A stretch of DNA of 30,043 bases from a virus, in IMG/VR virus record IMGVR_UViG_3300020215_000112, positions 1-30,043 of that record; one strand, given 5' to 3'. This document shows, one piece after another, positions 2,895 through 26,023 of the stretch; positions within the stretch are counted from its first letter, which is position 1; each line of letters opens with the position of its first letter. A program made the position numbers and the translations under genes. The notes under the pieces are model-generated. The model was not told the DNA's origin. It made no database searches and saw nothing but the letters and a program-made list of their open reading frames with translations.

Positions 2895-3907
2895 GACACC
2901 TCCGGAAGAAGAACGGCCTGGCGCAGCCGGGTACGCAGTGCCAGGTCCAGGTAGGGCTGGTGCAGGTCGATGCCGACGAACCGGCGCCCGAGGCGGCCGG
3001 CGACGGCGCCGGTGGTGCCGGAGCCGCAGAACGGGTCCAGCACGGTCCCGCCGGGCCGGCAGCCAGCCAGGACGGCCCGGCGGACCAGCTCGTCCGGCAT
3101 GACGGCGAAGTGCGCGCCGGGGAACCGGGCCGTGGCCACGTCCCACACGTCACCGGGGTTGCGTCCGGCCGGGTGCACGGCGGTGTGACGGCTGCCGGTG
3201 GCCACGCAGTTGGTCTGCCGCGGCTGCCCGCCGACGCCGTCGGTGTACTTCGCCGCCGCCGGCGGGCCGCCGGGGAGTGGGGGCGGGGTGGCTGGGCGCT
3301 CGCGGATCGGGCGCTCGCGGATCGGGTCCAGGTCGAACCAGTACCGCGGACCCTTGGTGAGCAAGAACATCGCCTCGTGCCGGGTGCTGAGCCGGTCGGT
3401 GACCGACTCCGGCATGGCGTCGGGCTTGTTCCACACGATCCGGTTGCGCAGCGTCCAGCCTGTCTGGATCAGCGACCAGGTGACCCGCTCGGGGATCATC
3501 AGCAGGCTCTTGTACGGCGCCTCCGACGTGGCGTTGACCCGCGGCGGGATCAGCTCAGCCCTGTCCGCGCGCCGGGTCTGGCCGACGCTCGCGCCGGCGT
3601 TGGCCTTCCCGGCGTACGTGTCTCCCAGGTTCAGCCACAGCGTGCCGTCGTCCGCGAGCACCCGCCGAACCTCGGCCAGGATGCCGACCAGCCGGTCGAT
3701 GTACATGCCGCTGGTCGGCTCCAGTCCCAACTGGCCGGGCTCGCCGCCGTAGTCCCGCACCGCCCAGTACGGCGGGGACGTGACGACGCAGTCGGCCGAG
3801 CCAGCCGGCAGCGCCCGGAGCACGTCGAGGGCCTGCCCGTGGTACAGCGTCACCGCGTCGTCGTCGTAGTACGGCGCCGAAGCGGTCACCGGCGGGTCGG
3901 AGGTCAC
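2891..3907 (-). CDS. DNA N4-cytosine/N6-adenine methyltransferase (β-type order)
   Basis: Encodes 338 aa. The catalytic motif IV TSPPYW (residues 43-48) comes before the SAM-binding motif I DPFCGSGTT (from D291), the order of β-class N4/N6 amino-methyltransferases (N6_N4_Mtase family). SPPY with Trp following occurs in both N4-cytosine and N6-adenine enzymes, so the methylated base is not decided. The target-recognition part would be the middle (about 110-250). No restriction partner is adjacent, so this is a solitary phage methyltransferase, probably protecting phage DNA from host restriction. It starts at GTG 3907 (GTGA overlap). An exact 15-bp in-frame duplication lies in the middle region. 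Confidence 0.93.
   Translation of the reverse strand: MTSDPPVTASAPYYDDDAVTLYHGQALDVLRALPAGSADCVVTSPPYWAVRDYGGEPGQLGLEPTSGMYIDRLVGILAEVRRVLADDGTLWLNLGDTYAGKANAGASVGQTRRADRAELIPPRVNATSEAPYKSLLMIPERVTWSLIQTGWTLRNRIVWNKPDAMPESVTDRLSTRHEAMFLLTKGPRYWFDLDPIRERPIRERPATPPPLPGGPPAAAKYTDGVGGQPRQTNCVATGSRHTAVHPAGRNPGDVWDVATARFPGAHFAVMPDELVRRAVLAGCRPGGTVLDPFCGSGTTGAVAGRLGRRFVGIDLHQPYLDLALRTRLRQAVLLPEVS
3294..3323. repeat. Exact 15-bp tandem duplication inside the methyltransferase
   Basis: GGGCGCTCGCGGATC occurs twice head to tail (3294-3308 and 3309-3323). It keeps frame and gives a doubled five-residue peptide, IRERP IRERP, in the methyltransferase between the catalytic motifs. It looks like a recent slippage or recombination event. 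Confidence 0.9.
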
Positions 3908-5074: not shown

Positions 5075-5704
5075 CTACTCCCGCCTTCCGAGGTCGAGCG
5101 GCGCGTCGGACGGCCCGGTGTACGTGGGGCAGCCGGGACCGACCGGGTGGCTGTCCTGCCACCAGGGGCACCCGCAGTCGCGCGGCTCGGGTCGTCCCGT
5201 GGCGTCCTGCCGGTAGTGGCGCAGCGCCAGCTCCAGCGGCACGTTGTCGTCGGTGAACTGGTGGCCGGGGAAGTCGACGTCGGGGTGCCCGTCGTCGTCC
5301 AGCTCCAGCGTCAGCCCGGCGCGCTCTGCGACGCCGAGCACCACCGAGCGGGGCGCAGCGACCGTGGCCACCCCCAAGCCGTACACGAACCGGGACGGGT
5401 CCTGGCCGTTCGGCCGCCGGTCCTCGGTGAGCAGCCACCAGCCGCGCTCCTCCTGCCAGCCGATCCACACCTCGTCGTGCCGCCAGATCGGCTGGCCACC
5501 GATGGTGCCCTGCCGGCCGAGGTCGAGCTTGATCGCGCCGTCGCGGGGGTCGTTCGGGTCGGCGTAGAAGTCGGCGGTCGGGAACCCGGCGGCGTCGAGC
5601 GCCGCGGCCACGGCGGCGATGTACGGCTCGTGCGCCTCGTGGTAGCCGCGGCCATCCGGGTACAGGTCGGCCATCGTGGGCATCGTGATGTCGGAACTAC
5701 ACAC
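5075..5704 (-). CDS. DUF6292-like protein (209 aa)
   Basis: N-terminal YIAAVAAALDAAGF, then DPRDGAIKLDLG, WIGWQEERGWWLLTED and LVL-type helices resemble the actinobacterial family DUF6292, recalled from its typical order rather than searched. The C-terminal third adds a Cys/Trp segment (DCGCPWWQDSH) typical of phage versions. It starts at GTG 5704, two bases after the preceding stop, with no clear ribosome site; ATG codons at 5680 and 5671 are alternatives. Role unknown. Confidence 0.7.
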   Translation of the reverse strand: MCSSDITMPTMADLYPDGRGYHEAHEPYIAAVAAALDAAGFPTADFYADPNDPRDGAIKLDLGRQGTIGGQPIWRHDEVWIGWQEERGWWLLTEDRRPNGQDPSRFVYGLGVATVAAPRSVVLGVAERAGLTLELDDDGHPDVDFPGHQFTDDNVPLELALRHYRQDATGRPEPRDCGCPWWQDSHPVGPGCPTYTGPSDAPLDLGRRE

Positions 5705-13298: not shown

Positions 13299-14195
13299 TC
13301 AGGCGGCCAGCGGCGCGGTGCCGCCGAGTCGGCGGTGCAGGTAAGCCAGACCCCGAGCGGTGATGCGCACCTGCTCCGAGGTGCGGTCCTCCCCGCTGAT
13401 GGGGTGCTGGTAGGTGCGGGCCCGCAGGCGCACGTGCTCGGCGTGCGACGCGTACGGGATCCCGCGGGAGTCGATGAGCTGCCACTGACGCAGCAGGGCA
13501 AATAGCCGCCTCTGGCCGGTGTCGATGGCGGGATCGCGGTTGAGGATGTACGCCGCCTCCCGCACCGAGAAGTCCCCGTGCGCCGAGGCCAAGACGTCCC
13601 AGGCTGCTGCTCGAGGTGCCGCCTGCTCGAGGGCGGCGCGCGTCTCGGCGTGCTGCTCGAGTTCAGCGGCGTACGCCCGCAGCGCCTCCGGCAGGGTTTG
13701 AGGCACCGCCTGGGCGTCGTAGCGCCCGGTCTCGCGGATCGCAGGCAGTACCTCGTGTGTGACCCACCGCCGGAACCGCTTGGAGTCGGGCATGTCGGAG
13801 CGCATCGTCAGGAGGTATAGCCCCGGCTCACTGACGACGGTCACCCGCTGCTGGCCTCCAGGGGTACTCAGCAGATGAGTACCCCTGTCGTCCTCGTCGA
13901 CGAGCCGAGCGGCGTTGTGCGCGTCTCGGTAGCCGAGGACGGCCGCGAGGTCGGCTGCGACGAACCACGGCTCCCCGTCGACCAGCACGGTGCGGACCGG
14001 AAGGTTGCCGGCGCCGTACCGGAAGGTCTCGAGGTCGCCCGGGGTGAGGGCGCCGGCCCCTTGCAGCAGCCCCCTGTCGAGGGGCCGGCGCTCCTCGGTG
14101 TCCCGTGCGCTCCCACCGATACGCACGGGAAGGTCGTCCCGGCGGGGGCCGGGGGGTGGAGTGGGGGTGTGGGGCCCCGACGGCGGGTGGGTCAT
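13299..14195 (-). CDS. Phage antirepressor, BRO-N plus KilA-C domains
   Basis: Encodes 298 aa. After a Pro-rich N-terminus (about 1-60) comes a BRO-N domain: RTVLVDGEPWFVAADLAAVLG, NAARLVDEDDRG, VTVVSEPGLYLLTMRSD, and FRRWVTHEVLPAIRETG. Then a KilA-C/ANT domain follows from about residue 170: YAAELEQHAETRAALEQ, FSVREAAYILNRD, RLFALLRQWQLID and ITARGLAYLHRRLGG. Antirepressors of this type bind and inactivate lytic repressors or DNA. It is co-transcribed with the excisionase-like gene (ATGA overlap) from the divergent operator region, so it is presumably silenced by the XRE protein in lysogeny. Confidence 0.92.
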   Translation of the reverse strand: MTHPPSGPHTPTPPPGPRRDDLPVRIGGSARDTEERRPLDRGLLQGAGALTPGDLETFRYGAGNLPVRTVLVDGEPWFVAADLAAVLGYRDAHNAARLVDEDDRGTHLLSTPGGQQRVTVVSEPGLYLLTMRSDMPDSKRFRRWVTHEVLPAIRETGRYDAQAVPQTLPEALRAYAAELEQHAETRAALEQAAPRAAAWDVLASAHGDFSVREAAYILNRDPAIDTGQRRLFALLRQWQLIDSRGIPYASHAEHVRLRARTYQHPISGEDRTSEQVRITARGLAYLHRRLGGTAPLAA

Positions 14196-14359
14196 GCCGC
14201 ACCACCGAGTCGTTCGAGGTACTGCTGGATCGCCGTACGGGTGACAAGGCGAGCCCGGCCGATCTTGACGGATTCCAGCTCCCCCGACTTGACGAGGGCC
14301 CACACGAACCGCTCACTGAGGTCCATCAGGCGTGCGGCGTTCGGGACCTTGAAGGCCAT
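14192..14359 (-). CDS. Excisionase-family HTH protein (55 aa)
   Basis: VPNAARLMDLSERFVWALVKSG is the helix-turn-helix, ELESVKIGRARLVTRTAIQQYL is the wing and closing helix of the HTH_17/excisionase family. It is the first gene transcribed leftward from the operator region, opposite the repressor. That is the place of a Cro or Xis-type early switch. ATG 14359 is used; upstream in-frame ATGs come from the palindromes and are ignored. The ribosome site is poor (GGGAG at 13 bases). Confidence 0.8.
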   Translation of the reverse strand: MAFKVPNAARLMDLSERFVWALVKSGELESVKIGRARLVTRTAIQQYLERLGGAA

Positions 14360-14403
14360 CTGTTCACCAGCACTCCCGAGCTTGGTATCGGGTCGCCTTG
14401 TAC

Positions 14404-14417
14404 TCCCATGCATGGGA
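14404..14417. promoter_or_regulatory. Operator palindrome O1
   Basis: Perfect 14-bp palindrome TCCCATGCATGGGA, one of two near-identical copies between the divergent excisionase-like and repressor genes. Its centre is 27 bp from that of the second copy. It is probably bound by the XRE repressor, with the HTH protein at 14192-14359 as the alternative ligand. Confidence 0.75.
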
Positions 14418-14429
14418 CTACGGTACGCA

Positions 14430-14445
14430 CTCCCATGCATGGGAG
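14430..14445. promoter_or_regulatory. Operator palindrome O2
   Basis: Perfect 16-bp palindrome CTCCCATGCATGGGAG, extending the same core by one base each side. Flanking half-sites (ACTCCC near 14370, GGGAGC near 14567 and 14584) suggest weaker additional sites. Confidence 0.75.
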
Positions 14446-15572: not shown

Positions 15573-16799
15573 ATGCCTCGCCCCTACCCCACCATCAGCA
15601 AGGGCACCGACGGCAAGTGGCACGCCTGGGTCACGGTGGGCACCAAGCCAAACGGACGCCCGGACCAACGGCACATCAAACGCGCCAGCCGCGGGGACGT
15701 CGAGGTCGAAGTCGACAAGCTTCTCGCCCAGCGCCGGACCGGGAAGGTAACCAAGGCCGGTCGGAAGCCCACCGTCGAAGCGTGGCTCACCACCTACCTC
15801 GACACCATCGCCCCCCGCAAGTGTGACCCGTCCACGATCCAGGGCTACAGGTCGAAGGTCCGCAACTACGTCTACCCCGACCACGGCCGGACTCGGCTGG
15901 ACAGGTTGACAGCCGAAGACCTCGACGCCATCTACCTCGCCATGGCCCGAGCCGGCCGAGCGGACGCCACGATCCTCCAGACACACCGAATCCTGAGCCG
16001 CGCCTTGGAAATCGCATTCCGGCGCGGCCTCCTGCCCACCAACGTCGCCAAGCTCATCGACTCCCCCACCGCCAAGAAGCAGGAGATTGAACCGCTCACC
16101 GAGGACGAGGCTGTCGCTGTACTCGCCGCGGCGGAGGGACGCCGGAACGCTGCCCGTTGGTCCGTGGGACTCGCCCTTGGCCTCCGCCAGGGGGAGGCAC
16201 TCGGCCTACGCTGGGACTACGTGGACCTTCAGGCGGGAGAGCTGCGGGTCTGGTGGCAACTCCACCGGCGGGCGTGGGAACACGGATGCGGCCAACCCTG
16301 CGGGCGTCGCCGCGGTGGGAACTGTCCCGAGCGGCGAATGCCGATGCGCTCCGGGGAGACGTTGATCGAGGGACTCATCCTTAAAGCGCCAAAGGGGACG
16401 GGCAAGCGGACCATCCCGATCCCGGGCGAGCTGGTCGAGAAGCTGCAAGCGCATCGGGAGGTTCAGGCGTTGGAGCGTCAGTTCTTAGGGGCCGCGCACG
16501 ACCACGGATTCGTGTTCGCCCGCGCCGACGGGCGGCCGATCGATCCGGCTGATGACTGGTCGGAGTGGAAGAGCCTGCTGTCGCAGGCGGGGGTGCGGGA
16601 GGCGCGCGTCCACGATGGCCGGCACACCGCGGGAACGCTGATGATCGCACAAGGCGTACCGATCGAAGTGGTGCAGGAAATTCTCGGGCACTCGTCGGTC
16701 GTGGTCACTCGGGGATACACACATGTCGCGTCGAGGATGGCGCGTGAGGCTACAGAGCGTATGGGTGCGTCGCTGCTCAACAGGCGCAGTACACCCTGA
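15573..16799 (+). CDS. int: Tyrosine-recombinase integrase
   Basis: Encodes 408 aa. Residues 1-58 are the arm-binding AP2-like β domain (TISKGTDGKWHAWVTVG). Residues 66-165 are the SAM-like core-binding helices. Residues 172-400 are the catalytic domain with R205 (LGLRQGEAL), K274, H347 and R350 (HDGRH), H373 (LGHSS) and the nucleophile Y382 (RGYTHV). A Cys-rich insert, HGCGQPCG to NCPERR (238-255), sits in the catalytic domain and could bind zinc; it is common in actinomycete integrases. ATG 15573 follows AGAGGAA. The 3' end overlaps arm-type repeats of attP. It catalyses site-specific integration at the tRNA site beside it. Confidence 0.96.
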   Translation: MPRPYPTISKGTDGKWHAWVTVGTKPNGRPDQRHIKRASRGDVEVEVDKLLAQRRTGKVTKAGRKPTVEAWLTTYLDTIAPRKCDPSTIQGYRSKVRNYVYPDHGRTRLDRLTAEDLDAIYLAMARAGRADATILQTHRILSRALEIAFRRGLLPTNVAKLIDSPTAKKQEIEPLTEDEAVAVLAAAEGRRNAARWSVGLALGLRQGEALGLRWDYVDLQAGELRVWWQLHRRAWEHGCGQPCGRRRGGNCPERRMPMRSGETLIEGLILKAPKGTGKRTIPIPGELVEKLQAHREVQALERQFLGAAHDHGFVFARADGRPIDPADDWSEWKSLLSQAGVREARVHDGRHTAGTLMIAQGVPIEVVQEILGHSSVVVTRGYTHVASRMAREATERMGASLLNRRSTP

Positions 16800-16808
16800 A
16801 GTACACCC
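16788..16808 (+). repeat. Left attP arm: paired integrase arm sites
   Basis: AGTACACCC occurs at 16788-16796 and again at 16800-16808, a 12-bp repeat period. The first copy lies inside the integrase end. The identical pair with the same spacing occurs on the other side of the core. They are probably bound by the integrase N-terminal domain. Confidence 0.75.
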
Positions 16809-16831
16809 TTGATCTTGACACAGGCACGATG

Positions 16832-16873
16832 AAGGCCCCGTCGCCCGCCGGAGGCAGCACGTGGCGGGGCCTT
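16832..16873 (+). terminator. Strong terminator between integrase and core
   Basis: AAGGCCCCG (16832-16840) pairs perfectly with CGGGGCCTT (16865-16873), followed by TCGTATTTG. The loop can form a smaller hairpin. It would stop integrase transcription before the attachment core and can also act in the reverse direction. Confidence 0.8.
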
Positions 16874-16882
16874 TCGTATTTG

Positions 16883-16926
16883 TGGGGCGGGCGGGGCTCG
16901 AACCCGCGACCGAGGGATTATGAGCC
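16883..16926 (-). other. attP core: 3' half of a CAU-anticodon tRNA gene
   Basis: Read on the minus strand this is the anticodon loop CTCATAA (CAU), then the variable region, a complete T-arm (GCGGG TTCGAGC CCCGC), acceptor strand CCGCCCC and discriminator A; CCA is not encoded. The expected 5' half (acceptor strand GGGGCGG) is not present to the right, so it is not a working tRNA gene. On integration this fragment would restore the 3' half of a host tRNA-Met (or lysidine-modified tRNA-Ile). The homology appears to start at the anticodon loop. Confidence 0.88.
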
Positions 16927-17244
16927 TGTCGAAGTACGGTGCACGGCGCCGCACTCCCCAGCTCAAGCATGGCGATGCAGTGCTGTGCGGGACGGCGCAG
17001 TACACCCGCCAGTACACCCTCGGCCGGTGGCGCTCCGTGACAGTCACCGATCGCACATGAGATGGCACGCTATGCAATACAGTGATCGTGGTAAACATAG
17101 AGAACCCGCGCCGCCGATGGGACGGGGCCGCCATTGGCGGCACCACCGGACGGCGCGGGCCCCTGCCCGGTACATCTACCGGGGGCATGTGCGACAGCAC
17201 GCCTCAACCAGATGAACGACTCACCGTTTAGCCGAGTAACGCGG
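16927..17244. other. Right attP arm and gene-free spacer
   Basis: About 320 bases with no secure gene. It holds the right arm repeats (separate entry) and an AT-richer patch near 17071-17083 (TATGCA, TACAGT) that may be a promoter. A possible 49-codon plus-strand frame (GTG 17082 to TAG 17231) has reasonable codon use but no ribosome site or homology, so it is not called. Confidence 0.5.
16999..17019 (+). repeat. Right attP arm: paired integrase arm sites
   Basis: AGTACACCC at 16999-17007 and 17011-17019, in the same direction and 12-bp period as the left pair. Both pairs are preceded by GCGC or GGCGC. The two pairs flank the tRNA core, which is what attP of a bivalent integrase looks like. 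Confidence 0.75.
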
Positions 17245-17463
17245 TCATTCGCTCTCTTTCACGAAGACTCCAACGCCCGGCAACGTCTCGGTCAAGCCGT
17301 CCCGGCGAAGCAACATCATCGCCTTGTCCACCACCGTGTCTGAGACCTCGTACATCTGGCTCAGCTCCGTCCGGGACGGCAGTTTCGCTCCCGGCGGGTA
17401 CCGCCCTTCCTCGATCTGTCGCTTGAGGTCATCGGCGACCTGCTCGTACCGCTGCTTGGGCAT
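17245..17463 (-). CDS. Short GntR-family regulator (HTH only, 72 aa)
   Basis: A winged helix of the GntR family: YEQVADDLKRQIEEGRYPPG, then LPSRTELSQMYEVSDTVVDKA is the helix-turn-helix, MMLLRRDGLTETLPGVGVFV the wing. No effector domain follows, so it cannot bind a ligand like full-length members. Short forms are frequent in actinomycete mobile elements. ATG 17463 follows GGGGAG by 7 bases; the 12 extra upstream codons lack a site. The 9-bp element at 17475-17483 abuts its ribosome site, suggesting autoregulation. Divergent from the 50-aa gene at 17703. Confidence 0.88.
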   Translation of the reverse strand: MPKQRYEQVADDLKRQIEEGRYPPGAKLPSRTELSQMYEVSDTVVDKAMMLLRRDGLTETLPGVGVFVKESE

Positions 17464-17474
17464 GGTGATACTCC

Positions 17475-17483
17475 CCGGTTGGC
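17475..17483. promoter_or_regulatory. GntR-cassette element, copy 1A
   Basis: CCGGTTGGC, 12 bases upstream of the short GntR start and next to its ribosome site. With the following TAACCG it forms GGTT-N4-AACC, an imperfect inverted repeat. GATCAC lies 19 bases away. Probable autoregulatory operator. Confidence 0.55.
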
Positions 17484-17538
17484 TAACCGAGTAGATCACG
17501 CAACGCTCCCAACTATCAACGGCTAGCGGTCGCTAGGG

Positions 17539-17980: not shown

Positions 17981-18712
17981 ATGACCGAGCCCGGCCTGTC
18001 CGTCTTCATGCCCACACCGCCCCGCCGGCGAAAGCGGTGGCCGTGGATCGCCGCCTGCGGACTGTTGGCTGCTGCTCTCGCGGCTGGCGCAGCCCTCGCC
18101 ATCGTCGGCGACGACAGCCCGCCCGCAACGGCTTCCACCCCGGGCACAGTGGCGACGGCGTTCGAGGTCACGGTCGGCGGGGCGTGCTCCACAATCGGGG
18201 TCCGGAAAGAGGCGACCTCAGGCGTCCAGGTTGAGTGTGACGGCGAAGCGTGGAGAGTGGCATCGACCTCCGCGGCGACCGAACCGCCTGCCGCGGCGAC
18301 GACGGCGCCCGACCTCACCGAGCGCGTCGGCGGGGTGTTCAGCCTGTCCAACGAGGAGGGGCTGAACGCGACCTACCGGCTCACCCGCACCGCCACCAGG
18401 ACCATCGACGAGTTCGGCGACCGGCCCGATCGCGGGCTCTACTTCCTCGTCCACATCCAGGTGCACGTCACCGGCGGCTCCGAGTTCGCCTGCTCCTGCT
18501 CGTTCCAGTTCGTCACCTCGACAGGAAAGGTGTACGAACCGACCTACCGCACGTTCAAGGGCGTGGAGGAGTTCGAGTCCGCGGATCTCGCCGCCGGGCA
18601 GAACCGGGACGGGTGGATTGCGTTCGACATACCGAAGGCCACGGTCAAGGGAGGCCGCGTTGGATTCAAGCCCAACGCCTTCGGCGGCGAGATCGCATAC
18701 TGGATGCTTTAG
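17981..18712 (+). CDS. Membrane-anchored DUF4352-like protein (243 aa)
   Basis: ATG 17981 follows GAGGAG. A basic start (PPRRRKRWPW) and one hydrophobic helix at about 21-42 (IAACGLLAAALAAGAALAIV) are followed by a Thr/Ala/Pro linker, so most of the protein is outside the membrane. Residues about 110-243 read as an Ig-like β sandwich of the DUF4352/telokin type: FSLSNEEGLNATYRLTRTAT, YFLVHIQVHVTGG, FQFVTSTGKVYEP, GQNRDGWIAFDIP. It is a probable lysogenic-conversion (moron) product. It converges with the GntR/UTRA gene; their stop codons overlap by four bases. Confidence 0.75.
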   Translation: MTEPGLSVFMPTPPRRRKRWPWIAACGLLAAALAAGAALAIVGDDSPPATASTPGTVATAFEVTVGGACSTIGVRKEATSGVQVECDGEAWRVASTSAATEPPAAATTAPDLTERVGGVFSLSNEEGLNATYRLTRTATRTIDEFGDRPDRGLYFLVHIQVHVTGGSEFACSCSFQFVTSTGKVYEPTYRTFKGVEEFESADLAAGQNRDGWIAFDIPKATVKGGRVGFKPNAFGGEIAYWML

Positions 18713-19458
18713 TCCACGGGCACGCGGTAGACCAGCTCGTACCTGTCACCGGGAAAGATGATGTCGGCAGTCTCCACGGGCATGCCGGCCGCGTAGTACG
18801 TGCGCTCAACGTGCAGCACGAAAGCTCCCCGCGCTGGCAGCTTCAGCGCCTCCCGTTCGTTGCTGGACGCCGGACGGGCGGTAACTCGCTCGACGAACTC
18901 GTCGATGCGAACTCCGATGTGATCCATGCGCGCCACCACGCCGACCGCTGCTCCGTCTTCCGGCCACTCCACATCCGTTCCTCCGGTGATCGCCAGCGGC
19001 TCCCACGAGGTAGAGAGCTGGATCGGCTCGCCGTCGGCGAGGAATCGGTAGCGAGTGACGGTGACCGAGTCGCCGGGGTCGATCCCCAGCCGCGCGGCGA
19101 TCCGCTCGTCGGCGGTACCACGGGTGGTGGTGTGCTCCCACCCTCCGGCGTGGCCAGCGCGGGCGGCGTCGCGGGCGAACGGCGAAGTGTGTCCCGGTGA
19201 GGTGCGCAGGTTCCGACCGTGCGATTCGCGCACCAGGCGGCGCAACGTGCGAACGTAAACGCCTGAGCCTCTGCGGCCCTCGACGAGGCCCTCGCCCTTG
19301 AGGACGCTGATCGCCCACTTCGCGACGGTGCGGGAGACACCGTAGTGCTGCATGAGCTGGGTTTCGGTTGGTACCTTGTCGCCCGGCGCGAGTTCGCCGG
19401 CAGCGATCCGTGCCCTCAGGTCGGCAGCGATGCGCAGGTAAGCGGGAGTCTCGGGCAC
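18709..19458 (-). CDS. GntR/HutC-type regulator with UTRA domain
   Basis: Encodes 249 aa. Residues 1-72 are the winged helix (YLRIAADLRARIAAGELAPG, VPTETQLMQHYGVSRTVAKWA, GEGLVEGRRGSGVYV). Residues about 95-245 are a UTRA ligand domain (ADERIAARLGIDPGDSVTVT, LADGEPIQLSTSWEP, VLHVERTYYAAGMPVETADI, DRYELVYRV). HutC-subfamily proteins lose DNA binding on meeting a small metabolite. GTG 19458 follows GGAGGGG by 7 bases. It is divergent from the acetyltransferase at 19752, so it probably controls that gene and itself. The ligand is unknown. Confidence 0.9.
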   Translation of the reverse strand: MPETPAYLRIAADLRARIAAGELAPGDKVPTETQLMQHYGVSRTVAKWAISVLKGEGLVEGRRGSGVYVRTLRRLVRESHGRNLRTSPGHTSPFARDAARAGHAGGWEHTTTRGTADERIAARLGIDPGDSVTVTRYRFLADGEPIQLSTSWEPLAITGGTDVEWPEDGAAVGVVARMDHIGVRIDEFVERVTARPASSNEREALKLPARGAFVLHVERTYYAAGMPVETADIIFPGDRYELVYRVPVD

Positions 19459-20754: not shown

Positions 20755-21039
20755 CTAGGGGCCCGGGTGGTCGGCGCCGGTGACGTGGTGGATGCGGCGG
20801 ATCTCGTCGCGCATCGACGCGCCGCCGTTGGGGCGCAGCTCGGCCTCTATGTGGGCGAGCCGCGCCATCACCCCAGGTCGGCCGGGCACTCCATCCCTGG
20901 CGGGTTCGCCGTTCCAGTCCTCCAAGAAGCGGTCGACCTTGCGCAACGTGCGGATCATCCAACGCCCTCCCAGCGCGAGTCCGCTCACCGCGCCGGCCAG
21001 GACCCCGATCGCTCCGGCGATGGTGAGGATGAGGTCCAC
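20755..21039 (-). CDS. One-helix membrane protein, lysis-associated (94 aa)
   Basis: GTG 21039, two bases after the amidase stop. Residues 3-25 are hydrophobic (LILTIAGAIGVLAGAVSGLALG). The rest is charged with a RKVDRFLEDWNGEPARDGVP motif and a coiled-coil-like VMARLAHIEAELRPNGG segment. This type is found beside amidase and holin genes in many actinophages and may be a second holin or a holin regulator. Confidence 0.7.
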   Translation of the reverse strand: MDLILTIAGAIGVLAGAVSGLALGGRWMIRTLRKVDRFLEDWNGEPARDGVPGRPGVMARLAHIEAELRPNGGASMRDEIRRIHHVTGADHPGP

Positions 21040-22693: not shown

Positions 22694-25600
22694 CTACAGC
22701 GCCCAGCGCATCGGCCGGTACAGGGACACGTCGGTGCCGGCGGCGTGGGCCTTGGTGACGCCGTTGACCGAGCGGGTGACGGTGAAGGTCTGGACGTCGG
22801 AGCGGAGGGCGATGATGCCGCCGCGGGAGATCGCCGATGCCCCGCCGGTGACCGTGAAGACGCCGGAGCCGATGCCGGTGGCGGTGGTCTGGATCTGGTA
22901 GTTCCAGACGATGCCTTGGTCGTCGCCGGTGGTGGTGTCGGGTTCGCCGATCTCGGTGGCTCCGGAGATCGCGGCGACGGACGTCCAGTCGTCCTGCTTC
23001 CAGCCGAGGTACAGGATCAAGCAGTTGTCCTCGGGGACGTGCAGGCCCGGGTAGGTGATGTCCTGCGCCGACGCGTTCAGGCATTCGGCGGTGTAGCCCA
23101 CCGCCACGTTCTCGATGTTGTAGAACTTGCCGCGGAACGCGGCCGTCTGCGCCGACGTGTCCGCGTTCGCGGCGCCGCCGGTGAACGTCACCGTCGGCGC
23201 GGCCTCCGACGCGCCGGCGATCTTCCCGAACAGGCGGGCGTTCGAGGAGTCCAACAGCAGGGTGTAGCCGGTGGGGGTGTCCACGGTGCCGGTGCCGGAG
23301 TTGCGGATCGCCGCCCAGATCAGCAGCAGGTCCCCGGACTGGATCCCGGCCGGCAGGGACGCGGAAACCGAGGCGTTGTTGCCGTGCGCCACCGTGCCCG
23401 CGGCGACGTACGTGATCGCGGCCGGGGCAATGTCGGTGACGGTCATCCGTTCGCCGCCGGCGAGGATGTCGAACCCGTCCTCGGCGTTGTCTGCGGTCCA
23501 CAGCGGGCCGGAGGTGGTGGCCACGTCGAACGACGTCGCACCGGAGGTGACCGCGGAGGTTAGTTCGGAGCCGGCGGTGTCGTAGCGTCCGGTGTCCCAT
23601 ACCCCCACCTGGTAGGGGCCGGCGGGTACGCAGTTCCAGCGGATCCACCGCTCGAACTGGTCGACCGTCTCGACCGATCCCTGCACGAGGAGTTCCGCGA
23701 CGCCGGGTGGCATCCACGCGGGCAGGTTCTCCACGCTGATCAGGGCGCCGAGGTCCACCAGGGTCGCTGCGGTGGTGAGGCTGGCGCTGGCGGCGTACGC
23801 GTGCCCGTGGAGCGCGACCTCGACGGTGGGGTAGCGGACCTCGTCCCAGGTGCCCAGGCCAAGGCGCCAGCCGGCGAGGTTGTCGAGCTGCCCGTCTGTC
23901 TCGGCGTTCAGGGTCAAAGACGTCTCGTACACGCCCACCCCGCCGTCGGCGGGGTCGACCGCGGCCAGCGGCCCCGACTCCATGACCCGCCGTGTGGAGG
24001 ATCCGCTGTAGCGGGATACGGTGACGGCGTTGCGGGTGAGCTGGTCGTCATCGGCGGGCTCCAGCTCGCCGAACAGGTGCCCGGACTCGTAGTCGAGTTC
24101 GAGGGTGGCGGTCTGGTTGTACTGGCTTCGCAGGGTGCGGTAGCCGAGCCCGAACACCTGCCGCGGCTCGTACAGGATCCCGCCGTCCACGTCGGCGGCG
24201 TCCTGCACCAGGTCGAGGAGGGTGGCGATGCGCTGCGGTCCGCAGGTGTGGGTGTCAGCCAGGTCCCCGGCGGAGACGAACGCGATGCCTTCCTCGGCGC
24301 ACAGGCGCGCGATGCGCGCGCCCGCGGCCTCGCCGGTGAACCCCGACGCCGCGTACATGAGGCGGCCCTGGAAGTCGAGCGAGTTGGGGCCGTCGGACAC
24401 GAGGATGTGTCCGACATACGCGGAGTTGATGTTCGATGGAGTCGCGTTGCCCGGCGTCCGCCACCGCGCGATGTTGCCCAGCGTGTAGGTCGACGCGTTG
24501 GCCTGATCGAGGGTGGCGTCGATACACAGGTCAGCCTGCACGGTCGAGGCGCTGCTCTGCACCGCGGCGACGGTGACCAGGTGCCAGGCGTCGTCGAGGA
24601 AGTCCCCGGACAGGCTGTCGGTCATCACGGACGCGCCGGTGGCGTCGTACACGGTCAGGGTGACCGCGGCGTTGGAGACGACGACCCGCCAGATCGGCAG
24701 GTCCCCGTACGCGACGATCTCGATCGGCGAGAACGACGCCGTGGTCCCCGACGCCCGGAACCAGCACGCGACGTACCAGCCACGCCCGACACCGAGAGCG
24801 GTGCCGGCGGGATAGCCGATGATGCACGACGTCGCCGGCGACCCGTTCGTGCCGGCCACCGACGGAACCTGACCGGAGCCGGCCGGGCCGTCACCTGCCG
24901 CAAAGGTGATCTGCGTACCGACCACGACGCCGTACTTGTCCCCGACCGCTGGCGCGGCACGAGTAGACCCGGCTGCGTCCTCCAGCGGCCAGTAGCCGAG
25001 CGGGATCTCGTTGGCGTCGGTGAGGGTCGTGATGTAGCGGTACAGTGCCGACCTCAGCACCGCGGTCTGCCCGAGGCGGCGCACGATCCCGGCCGCGTCG
25101 ATCGGCGCCCACACGTCGCTGCCCGTGGTATCCCAGCGTTGCGGCCAGGCCGGCACCTCGCCGGAGAACCGCACGTCATCGACCCGGAAGTTGTCGACCT
25201 CGACGACCACCGGGGTGGTGTTGGAGTTCGACGTGTTCAGGATCGCCCGGACACCGACGGTGCCGGCGGCGGTGAACGTCGTGTCCGTGTCGGTGACCGT
25301 GGACGCGTTGGTGGGGGTGGCGAGATCACACACCCGCAGCGACAGGTACGAGCCGATCAGCACGAACTCGACCCCGACGTCCGTGGATGCCGTGTAGGCG
25401 AAGCTGTCGCCTGACAGGGCCAGCAGCGTGTTGGTCCCGGCTACCCGCTTGGCGATCATCGCGGTCACAGTGCCGTCGGTGCCGAACCGGGCGATGCCGA
25501 AGTAGTGGTTGTCGGCATCCACGCGCCGGGCGATGATCGCCATGTCGACGGCGGCGCCGGTCGCCACCACGCCCGGGGAGAACCGTGCCGCGATGGTGGT

Positions 25601-26023
25601 GTCCTTGCGGGACACGCCGGCCAGATACGCCGACCGGGCCGTGCCCACGGACCCGAGGCTGATCGTCCCCACGCCGGAGCCGGCGTTATAGTCCGACGCG
25701 GTCCCGACGACCGTCCACGCGTGTCCCGAGTCTGACGTGCCCCACCCCGACGAAGCCGTGCGCGCGAAACTGTCGGTCACCTCTGGTATGGCAATCCGCA
25801 CCGGGGTGTTCCGGCCGATCTGCCCGTAGTACGTCCCGGTCGGATTCCGGGGGCTGAAGAGCCCGTCCCGGTTGTTGATCACCATGGGGGCGCGGGACGG
25901 GCCGACCTTCGACTGCTCGTTCGCCCGGCCGCGCTCGATCGCAATCGCCGGTTCCTTGCGGACGCGAGACGTGGTGTCGACCCACTGCCCGCCGAGCCAC
26001 AGGTCGATCCGAGGGGTGGTCAC
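22694..26023 (-). CDS. Minor tail protein / tail-tip hub (1109 aa)
   Basis: The N-terminus (PRIDLWLGGQWVDTTSRV, then APMVINNRDGLFSPRNPTG) is typical of actinophage minor tail proteins that cap the tape measure. Residues about 80-270 form a β jelly-roll. About 340-555 is a LamG-like region (LGYWPLEDAAGSTRAAP, GWYVACWFRASGTTASF). About 600-740 is hub-like (AADVDGGILYEPRQVFG, TLELDYESGHLFGELEPADD). The last 32 residues (from QTFTVTRSVNGVTKAHAAGT) are the usual C-terminus. An extra 210-aa β domain (867-1077) splits the final module. It probably contributes to host-surface binding. GTG 26023 forms GTGA with the tape measure stop. Confidence 0.88.
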   Translation of the reverse strand: MTTPRIDLWLGGQWVDTTSRVRKEPAIAIERGRANEQSKVGPSRAPMVINNRDGLFSPRNPTGTYYGQIGRNTPVRIAIPEVTDSFARTASSGWGTSDSGHAWTVVGTASDYNAGSGVGTISLGSVGTARSAYLAGVSRKDTTIAARFSPGVVATGAAVDMAIIARRVDADNHYFGIARFGTDGTVTAMIAKRVAGTNTLLALSGDSFAYTASTDVGVEFVLIGSYLSLRVCDLATPTNASTVTDTDTTFTAAGTVGVRAILNTSNSNTTPVVVEVDNFRVDDVRFSGEVPAWPQRWDTTGSDVWAPIDAAGIVRRLGQTAVLRSALYRYITTLTDANEIPLGYWPLEDAAGSTRAAPAVGDKYGVVVGTQITFAAGDGPAGSGQVPSVAGTNGSPATSCIIGYPAGTALGVGRGWYVACWFRASGTTASFSPIEIVAYGDLPIWRVVVSNAAVTLTVYDATGASVMTDSLSGDFLDDAWHLVTVAAVQSSASTVQADLCIDATLDQANASTYTLGNIARWRTPGNATPSNINSAYVGHILVSDGPNSLDFQGRLMYAASGFTGEAAGARIARLCAEEGIAFVSAGDLADTHTCGPQRIATLLDLVQDAADVDGGILYEPRQVFGLGYRTLRSQYNQTATLELDYESGHLFGELEPADDDQLTRNAVTVSRYSGSSTRRVMESGPLAAVDPADGGVGVYETSLTLNAETDGQLDNLAGWRLGLGTWDEVRYPTVEVALHGHAYAASASLTTAATLVDLGALISVENLPAWMPPGVAELLVQGSVETVDQFERWIRWNCVPAGPYQVGVWDTGRYDTAGSELTSAVTSGATSFDVATTSGPLWTADNAEDGFDILAGGERMTVTDIAPAAITYVAAGTVAHGNNASVSASLPAGIQSGDLLLIWAAIRNSGTGTVDTPTGYTLLLDSSNARLFGKIAGASEAAPTVTFTGGAANADTSAQTAAFRGKFYNIENVAVGYTAECLNASAQDITYPGLHVPEDNCLILYLGWKQDDWTSVAAISGATEIGEPDTTTGDDQGIVWNYQIQTTATGIGSGVFTVTGGASAISRGGIIALRSDVQTFTVTRSVNGVTKAHAAGTDVSLYRPMRWAL

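Follow-up and report, generated by a model that had tools for sequence, protein, structure and literature searches.

The segment at positions 16788-17019 of a linear IMG/VR contig raises the question of what short direct repeats are doing on either side of half a tRNA gene, at the 3' end of an integrase gene and among phage genes. We analyzed it together with the rest of the window, that is, the whole stretch of 30,043 nucleotides, and with related viral and bacterial sequences. The features that bear on the question are these:

14192..14440, minus strand: HTH_17 protein, 82 aa (PF12728, 1.3e-9)
15573..16799, plus strand: tyrosine integrase (int), 408 aa (PF00589, 3.9e-24)
16788..16796, plus strand: left (int-proximal) putative arm site 1, AGTACACCC, overlapping the int stop codon
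16800..16808, plus strand: left putative arm site 2, AGTACACCC, 12 bp after site 1
16809..16817, plus strand: TTGATCTTG extension, conserved behind the second proximal arm in most relatives (13 proximal arms aligned)
about 16832..16873: terminator-like hairpin (strong, z -2.7), between the left pair and the tRNA 3' end
16883..16924, minus strand: putative attP core, 3' half of a CAT-anticodon tRNA, 42 nt, matching Micromonosporaceae tRNA genes at 42/42 positions
16918..16924, minus strand: anticodon loop CTCATAA, putative crossover (overlap) region, where identity to the host stops
16943..16965: spaced TGCA element, degenerate copy, between the core and the distal arms; conserved in most relatives
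16999..17007, plus strand: right (distal) putative arm site 1, AGTACACCC, beginning 74 bp past the anticodon loop
17011..17019, plus strand: right putative arm site 2, AGTACACCC

The integrase has the catalytic residues R205, K274, H347, R350, H373, and Y382, which are invariant or nearly so in the alignment of its relatives. Its AlphaFold model (mean pLDDT 87, pTM 0.72) places three strands and a helix (residues 8-55) ahead of a helical core-binding domain and a catalytic domain, and the best PDB fold match by E-value is the core-DNA-bound lambda Int structure 1z1b; in this model, residues 8-55 would be expected to form the N-terminal arm-binding domain. The last codons of int, AGT ACA CCC TGA, coincide with the first putative arm site. 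Homologues of the HTH_17 protein adjoin int in G011, G012, and G198, and we consider this protein a candidate excisionase (directionality factor).

The preliminary description had reported repeat pairs of 12-bp period flanking a tRNA half, and this was borne out: the four plus-strand copies of AGTACACCC are exact and form two direct pairs of that period, the pairs lying 211 bp apart, beyond what chance would produce. A fifth, isolated copy lies at 2636 on the minus strand (expectation, 0.12 copies in the window). AGTACACCC is unique among the window's 9-mers in making two pairs of 12-bp period within 300 bp, and in 200 order-2 Markov simulations no 9-mer did so.

Between the repeats, the minus strand reads CTCATAATCCCTCGGTCGCGGGTTCGAGCCCCGCCCGCCCCA, which runs from the anticodon loop CTCATAA to the discriminator A73 and comprises the CAT anticodon loop, the 3' strand of the anticodon stem, the variable loop, the T arm, the 3' acceptor strand, and A73. 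As described previously, this is the 3' half of a CAU-anticodon tRNA, and no 5' half is present to its right. ARAGORN found no complete tRNA in the window, which probably represents an incomplete genome, and an Rfam search of the window returned no match, as expected for half a tRNA. In a species-level genome collection, the 42-nt half was found exactly in nine contigs: seven belong to Micromonospora, Hamadaea, or Virgisporangium and one to Kineosphaera limosa, each with a complete tRNA gene. A host tRNA-Met or tRNA-Ile2 gene with the same 3' end, which the preliminary description had proposed to look for, thus exists in Micromonosporaceae as complete genes identical at all 42 positions, and we infer that the phage's own host is of this type, among the soil actinobacteria. 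Four CAT tRNA genes are present in M. chokoriensis: two of initiator type, a 74-nt gene beside tRNA-Thr(GGT), and the target. Since we take the gene beside tRNA-Thr to be elongator tRNA-Met, the target is, by elimination, probably tRNA-Ile2. The ninth contig, from Micromonospora alfalfae (L006), carries the tRNA-CAT 3' half alone, without a 5' half, near a distant integrase match; GTACACC repeats are absent, and a different element seems to use this attB there.

Phage and host sequences are identical up to the end of the anticodon loop and diverge beyond it (AGGGGACTCATAA in the host, GACAGGCTCATAA in the phage; AGGGGA/CTCATAA against GACAGG/CTCATAA), and the crossover is therefore placed there. 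The junctions of relatives were counted as evidence for the same position, and location in the anticodon loop is common in mycobacteriophages (PMC10865867).

Relatives of the integrase (50-69% identity) were recovered from viral contigs and Micromonosporaceae genomes by an alignment search of the former and a family search of the latter; a single-protein integrase search of genome contigs returned no relative. An attP-like layout, with paired repeats around a tRNA half, is seen in L247, L251, L252, L260, L246, and L017/L020, and at least 11 attP or junction sites of relatives have kept the arm pairs. The arm consensus from these relatives is (A/G)GTACACCCT-nnn-GTACACCCT, followed by TGATCTTG on the int-proximal side; taken separately, the proximal consensus is (A/G)GTACACCCTgacGTACACCCTTGATCTTG and the distal consensus TGCAGTACACCCtnnnGTACACCCT. 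The preliminary description had taken the consensus as directly readable; set against the relatives, the consensus from this single window, AGTACACCC, is incomplete. In many of the relatives, the int stop codon context GTACACCCTGA forms the first proximal site, and the overlap of site 1 with the int stop recurs in L247, L248-L251, L258, L260, L023, L026, and L043. From the anticodon loop to the distal pair, the distance is 74-75 bp in eight of 11 relatives, 72 bp in one, and 84 bp in two. The proximal distance varies from 55 to 114 bp, with a terminator in the longer intervals; its helical phasing (period 11, chosen from three; R 0.77; p about 0.001) is suggestive only, as the relatives are not independent. 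The TGCA element, where we would guess that the directionality factor or a bending protein may bind, and the distal TTGATCTTG are degenerate or missing in the window, and this was counted against reading the segment as attP.

Beyond these relatives, the motif is less readily interpreted. Distant integrase relatives (38-44% identity, mostly at tRNA-Ser) have no GTACACCC pairs near int. The spaced pair AGTACACC-N4-AGTACACC occurred in 110 viral stretches, against 10 for the reversed control, most of them not beside a recognised integrase; within 600 bp of an integrase there were eight, against 1.9 expected, the eight including motif-selected seeds. We rejected the paired motif as a universal arm site: it recurs, but its raw enrichment does not count as evidence of arm sites. 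A literature search for the GTACACCC motif string together with integrase found nothing related. Pairs of AAGTACACCC also occur around a tRNA-Gly half (L018, 4424-4690) and beside a tRNA-Arg (L015, 1160-1180), where they adjoin an unrelated type of integrase, the same arm motif having arisen by descent or by convergence.

Three related Micromonosporaceae prophages have split junctions, with one repeat pair at each. In G218, which shares the CAT-tRNA target, copies of the tRNA 3' end lie at 1473427 and 1512584, 39.2 kb apart; the int end has a complete tRNA and one arm pair, and the far end a half tRNA and the other pair. The G198 prophage (about 52 kb) has the same target, and that of G002 (L117/L118; about 30 kb) lies at tRNA-Arg(TCT) with the same arms, the element carrying the tRNA 5' half instead of the 3' half. 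For these relatives, the junctions match the attL and attR that the model predicts; no lysogen of the window's own phage was found, and hence its own attL and attR were not seen. Taken together, the identity to host tRNA genes, the layouts of relatives, and the split junctions in their lysogens uphold the proposal of an intact attP with paired putative arms, and we are highly confident that 16788-17019 serves a temperate tailed phage of Micromonosporaceae-type actinobacteria as its attP.

At this attP, the N-terminal domain of the integrase would hold the two AGTACACCC pairs, while the core-binding and catalytic domains would act at the CTCATAA loop, swapping strands with the same loop of a single host CAT-tRNA gene. 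The phage tRNA 3' half and the terminator would then join the host 5' half, restoring the tRNA beside int and the left arms, and the displaced host 3' half would end up beside the right arms. The hairpin would act as a terminator for int and, once the phage is integrated, for the rebuilt tRNA.

Phage genes do continue on both sides, as had been noted: those for a methylase and an antirepressor on the left, and those for endolysin, tape-measure-like, and major tail proteins on the right. Two GntR-type regulator genes, one with a UTRA ligand domain, stand just right of attP (17245-17499 and 18709-19458), an unusual cargo beside such a site. From the flanking genes, the preliminary description had concluded that the assembly is of the un-integrated genome. 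Comparison with single prophages supports this: in G011, close to the distal end, the one bearing the arms, are homologues of the window's tail and neighboring genes (22694-26023 and 20755-21039), and homologues of the antirepressor and HTH genes lie beside int at the opposite end; in G198, the small GntR gene (17245-17499) has a homologue about 1 kb inward from the distal arms. As the right flank thus corresponds to the distal prophage end and the left flank to the int end, the contig represents the joined, un-integrated form, and the window would join both prophage ends through the core, as in excised or virion DNA.

That conclusion is not strictly forced, however, as the junction of two prophages integrated in tandem at one tRNA would look identical, with phage genes flanking a tRNA 3' half and arm sites; this is the sole serious alternative to the un-integrated form. 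A related isolate contig (L244) shows what such a look-alike may be: int, a GTACACCC pair, and a tRNA-Thr 3' half are followed by a different 12-bp repeat, TGTCCTCA, which is also found on the outer side of L019, making L244 a plausible tandem junction. In the window, by comparison, both pairs are of one type and spaced as usual, the flanking genes match opposite ends of single prophages, several independent contigs share the joined form, and neither a host gene nor a second integrase was recognised. We therefore consider a tandem junction very unlikely here. In L244 (about 5100-5500) and L019 (about 3860-3890), where the tRNA-Thr half is followed by TGTCCTCA repeats with a 12-bp period, these repeats are probably the arm site of another integrase and the contigs tandem-prophage junctions.

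Whether the AGTACACCC repeats might instead be sites of some other regulator, such as one of int transcription or a directionality factor, is suggested by the overlap of the first site with the int stop codon and by the arm-like repeats that Cluster J phages have at the int start too (PMC3706429). The presence of one pair on each side of the core, the nearly fixed distal distance, and the division of the pairs between both lysogen junctions argue for arm sites, as does a layout matching that of the sites described as arm-type in the AICEs pSAM2 and pACPL and in mycobacteriophages, so that we regard the regulator-site explanation as highly improbable. That the repeats arose by chance around a tRNA relic of past transduction, to which the extra copy at 2636 might point, is already refuted by the comparative data (conservation in the related sites) together with the simulations, and its probability is negligible.

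As an attP, the site resembles several known systems. The window integrase is 34-35% identical over 96% of its length to integrases of the Fionnbharth family, which likewise use attB sites in tRNA anticodon loops, have paired arms around the core, and include both reconstructing and tRNA-dependent members (PMC10865867). The arms of Fionnbharth itself read GGGTACA(CC); they flank its core as pairs and share the 12-bp period seen in the window. Fionnbharth has its attP upstream of int, a 10-bp core, and a phage tRNA (PMC10865867), whereas the window has attP downstream of int, a core of 42 nt, and no tRNA gene, and the host tRNA would be restored. Cluster J mycobacteriophages (Omega, BAKA) share with the window an attP 3' of int, a core (44 bp) in a tRNA 3' half, direct arm repeat pairs (P1/P2 and P3/P4), and an HTH candidate directionality factor, but differ in integrase phamily, arm consensus (TGCATAC), and target (tRNA-Leu) (PMC3706429). 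In pSAM2 and pACPL, a tRNA 3'-end core has a repeat on each side, consisting of two units 12 bp apart (GTCACCCAGTTAGTTACCCAG), and the pSAM2 integrase binds its flanking repeats (PMC3364876); unlike the window, these are conjugative elements, with a different arm sequence and target tRNA. Lambda Int (1z1b, 5j0n) is the best full-length fold match, with arm-binding, core-binding, and catalytic domains, at about 16% identity. The lambda core lies outside any tRNA, and its arm sites are arranged asymmetrically. With the catalytic set, a predicted arm-binding domain, repeats on both sides, and a core equal to the host attB sequence, the window holds an ordinary, well-formed attP of lambda type and anticodon-loop class, a kind already known.

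What the comparison adds concerns variation at the core. The CAT tRNA is the target in the window, L017, L247, G218, G198, and G185; tRNA-Thr(CGT) in L251, L252, L260, L261, G253, L019, and L244; tRNA-Thr(TGT) in G036; and tRNA-Arg(TCT) in G002. In L256, L257, L259, and G087 (L047/L122), the whole attP cassette is inverted relative to int, and the arms read GTGTACT. In G198 (L114 near 1351-1490; L113), the host CAT tRNA is split and not rebuilt, and the element has its own complete CAT tRNA beside int; in G036 (L123, 1240-1530), a short core with the tRNA-Thr anticodon loop lies between GTACACCC pairs, and a complete tRNA-Thr(TGT) stands directly 3' of int. Both are candidates for tRNA-dependent lysogeny in Micromonosporaceae-related elements, a mode described in mycobacteriophages and Gordonia phages (PMC10865867). 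Such systems have a core too short to restore the tRNA, whereas the window's 42 nt are the whole 3' half. Across the relatives, the arms and the core-to-distal-arm distance are thus nearly fixed, while the tRNA target, the half carried, and the cassette orientation vary.

It is an even call whether this integrase lineage has kept its arm recognition (paired GTACACC, 12-bp period) and its core-to-distal-arm geometry almost unchanged and left everything about the core free to vary: (i) the target tRNA (Ile2/Met CAT, Thr CGT, Thr TGT, or Arg TCT), (ii) the 3' or 5' tRNA half, (iii) the orientation to int, and (iv) restoring or replacing the tRNA. If true, arm recognition would be the conserved identity of the system, reaching the Fionnbharth integrases and perhaps some proteobacterial ones. 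Few integration systems are described for Micromonosporaceae, with one paper found on prophage, integrase, and attP in Micromonospora, and this clean, readable attP/int module could serve as an integration vector. What makes this attP valuable is that fixed arms can be compared with changing cores, a natural experiment on how integrases switch target tRNA, which also allows one to ask how restoring systems turn tRNA-dependent.
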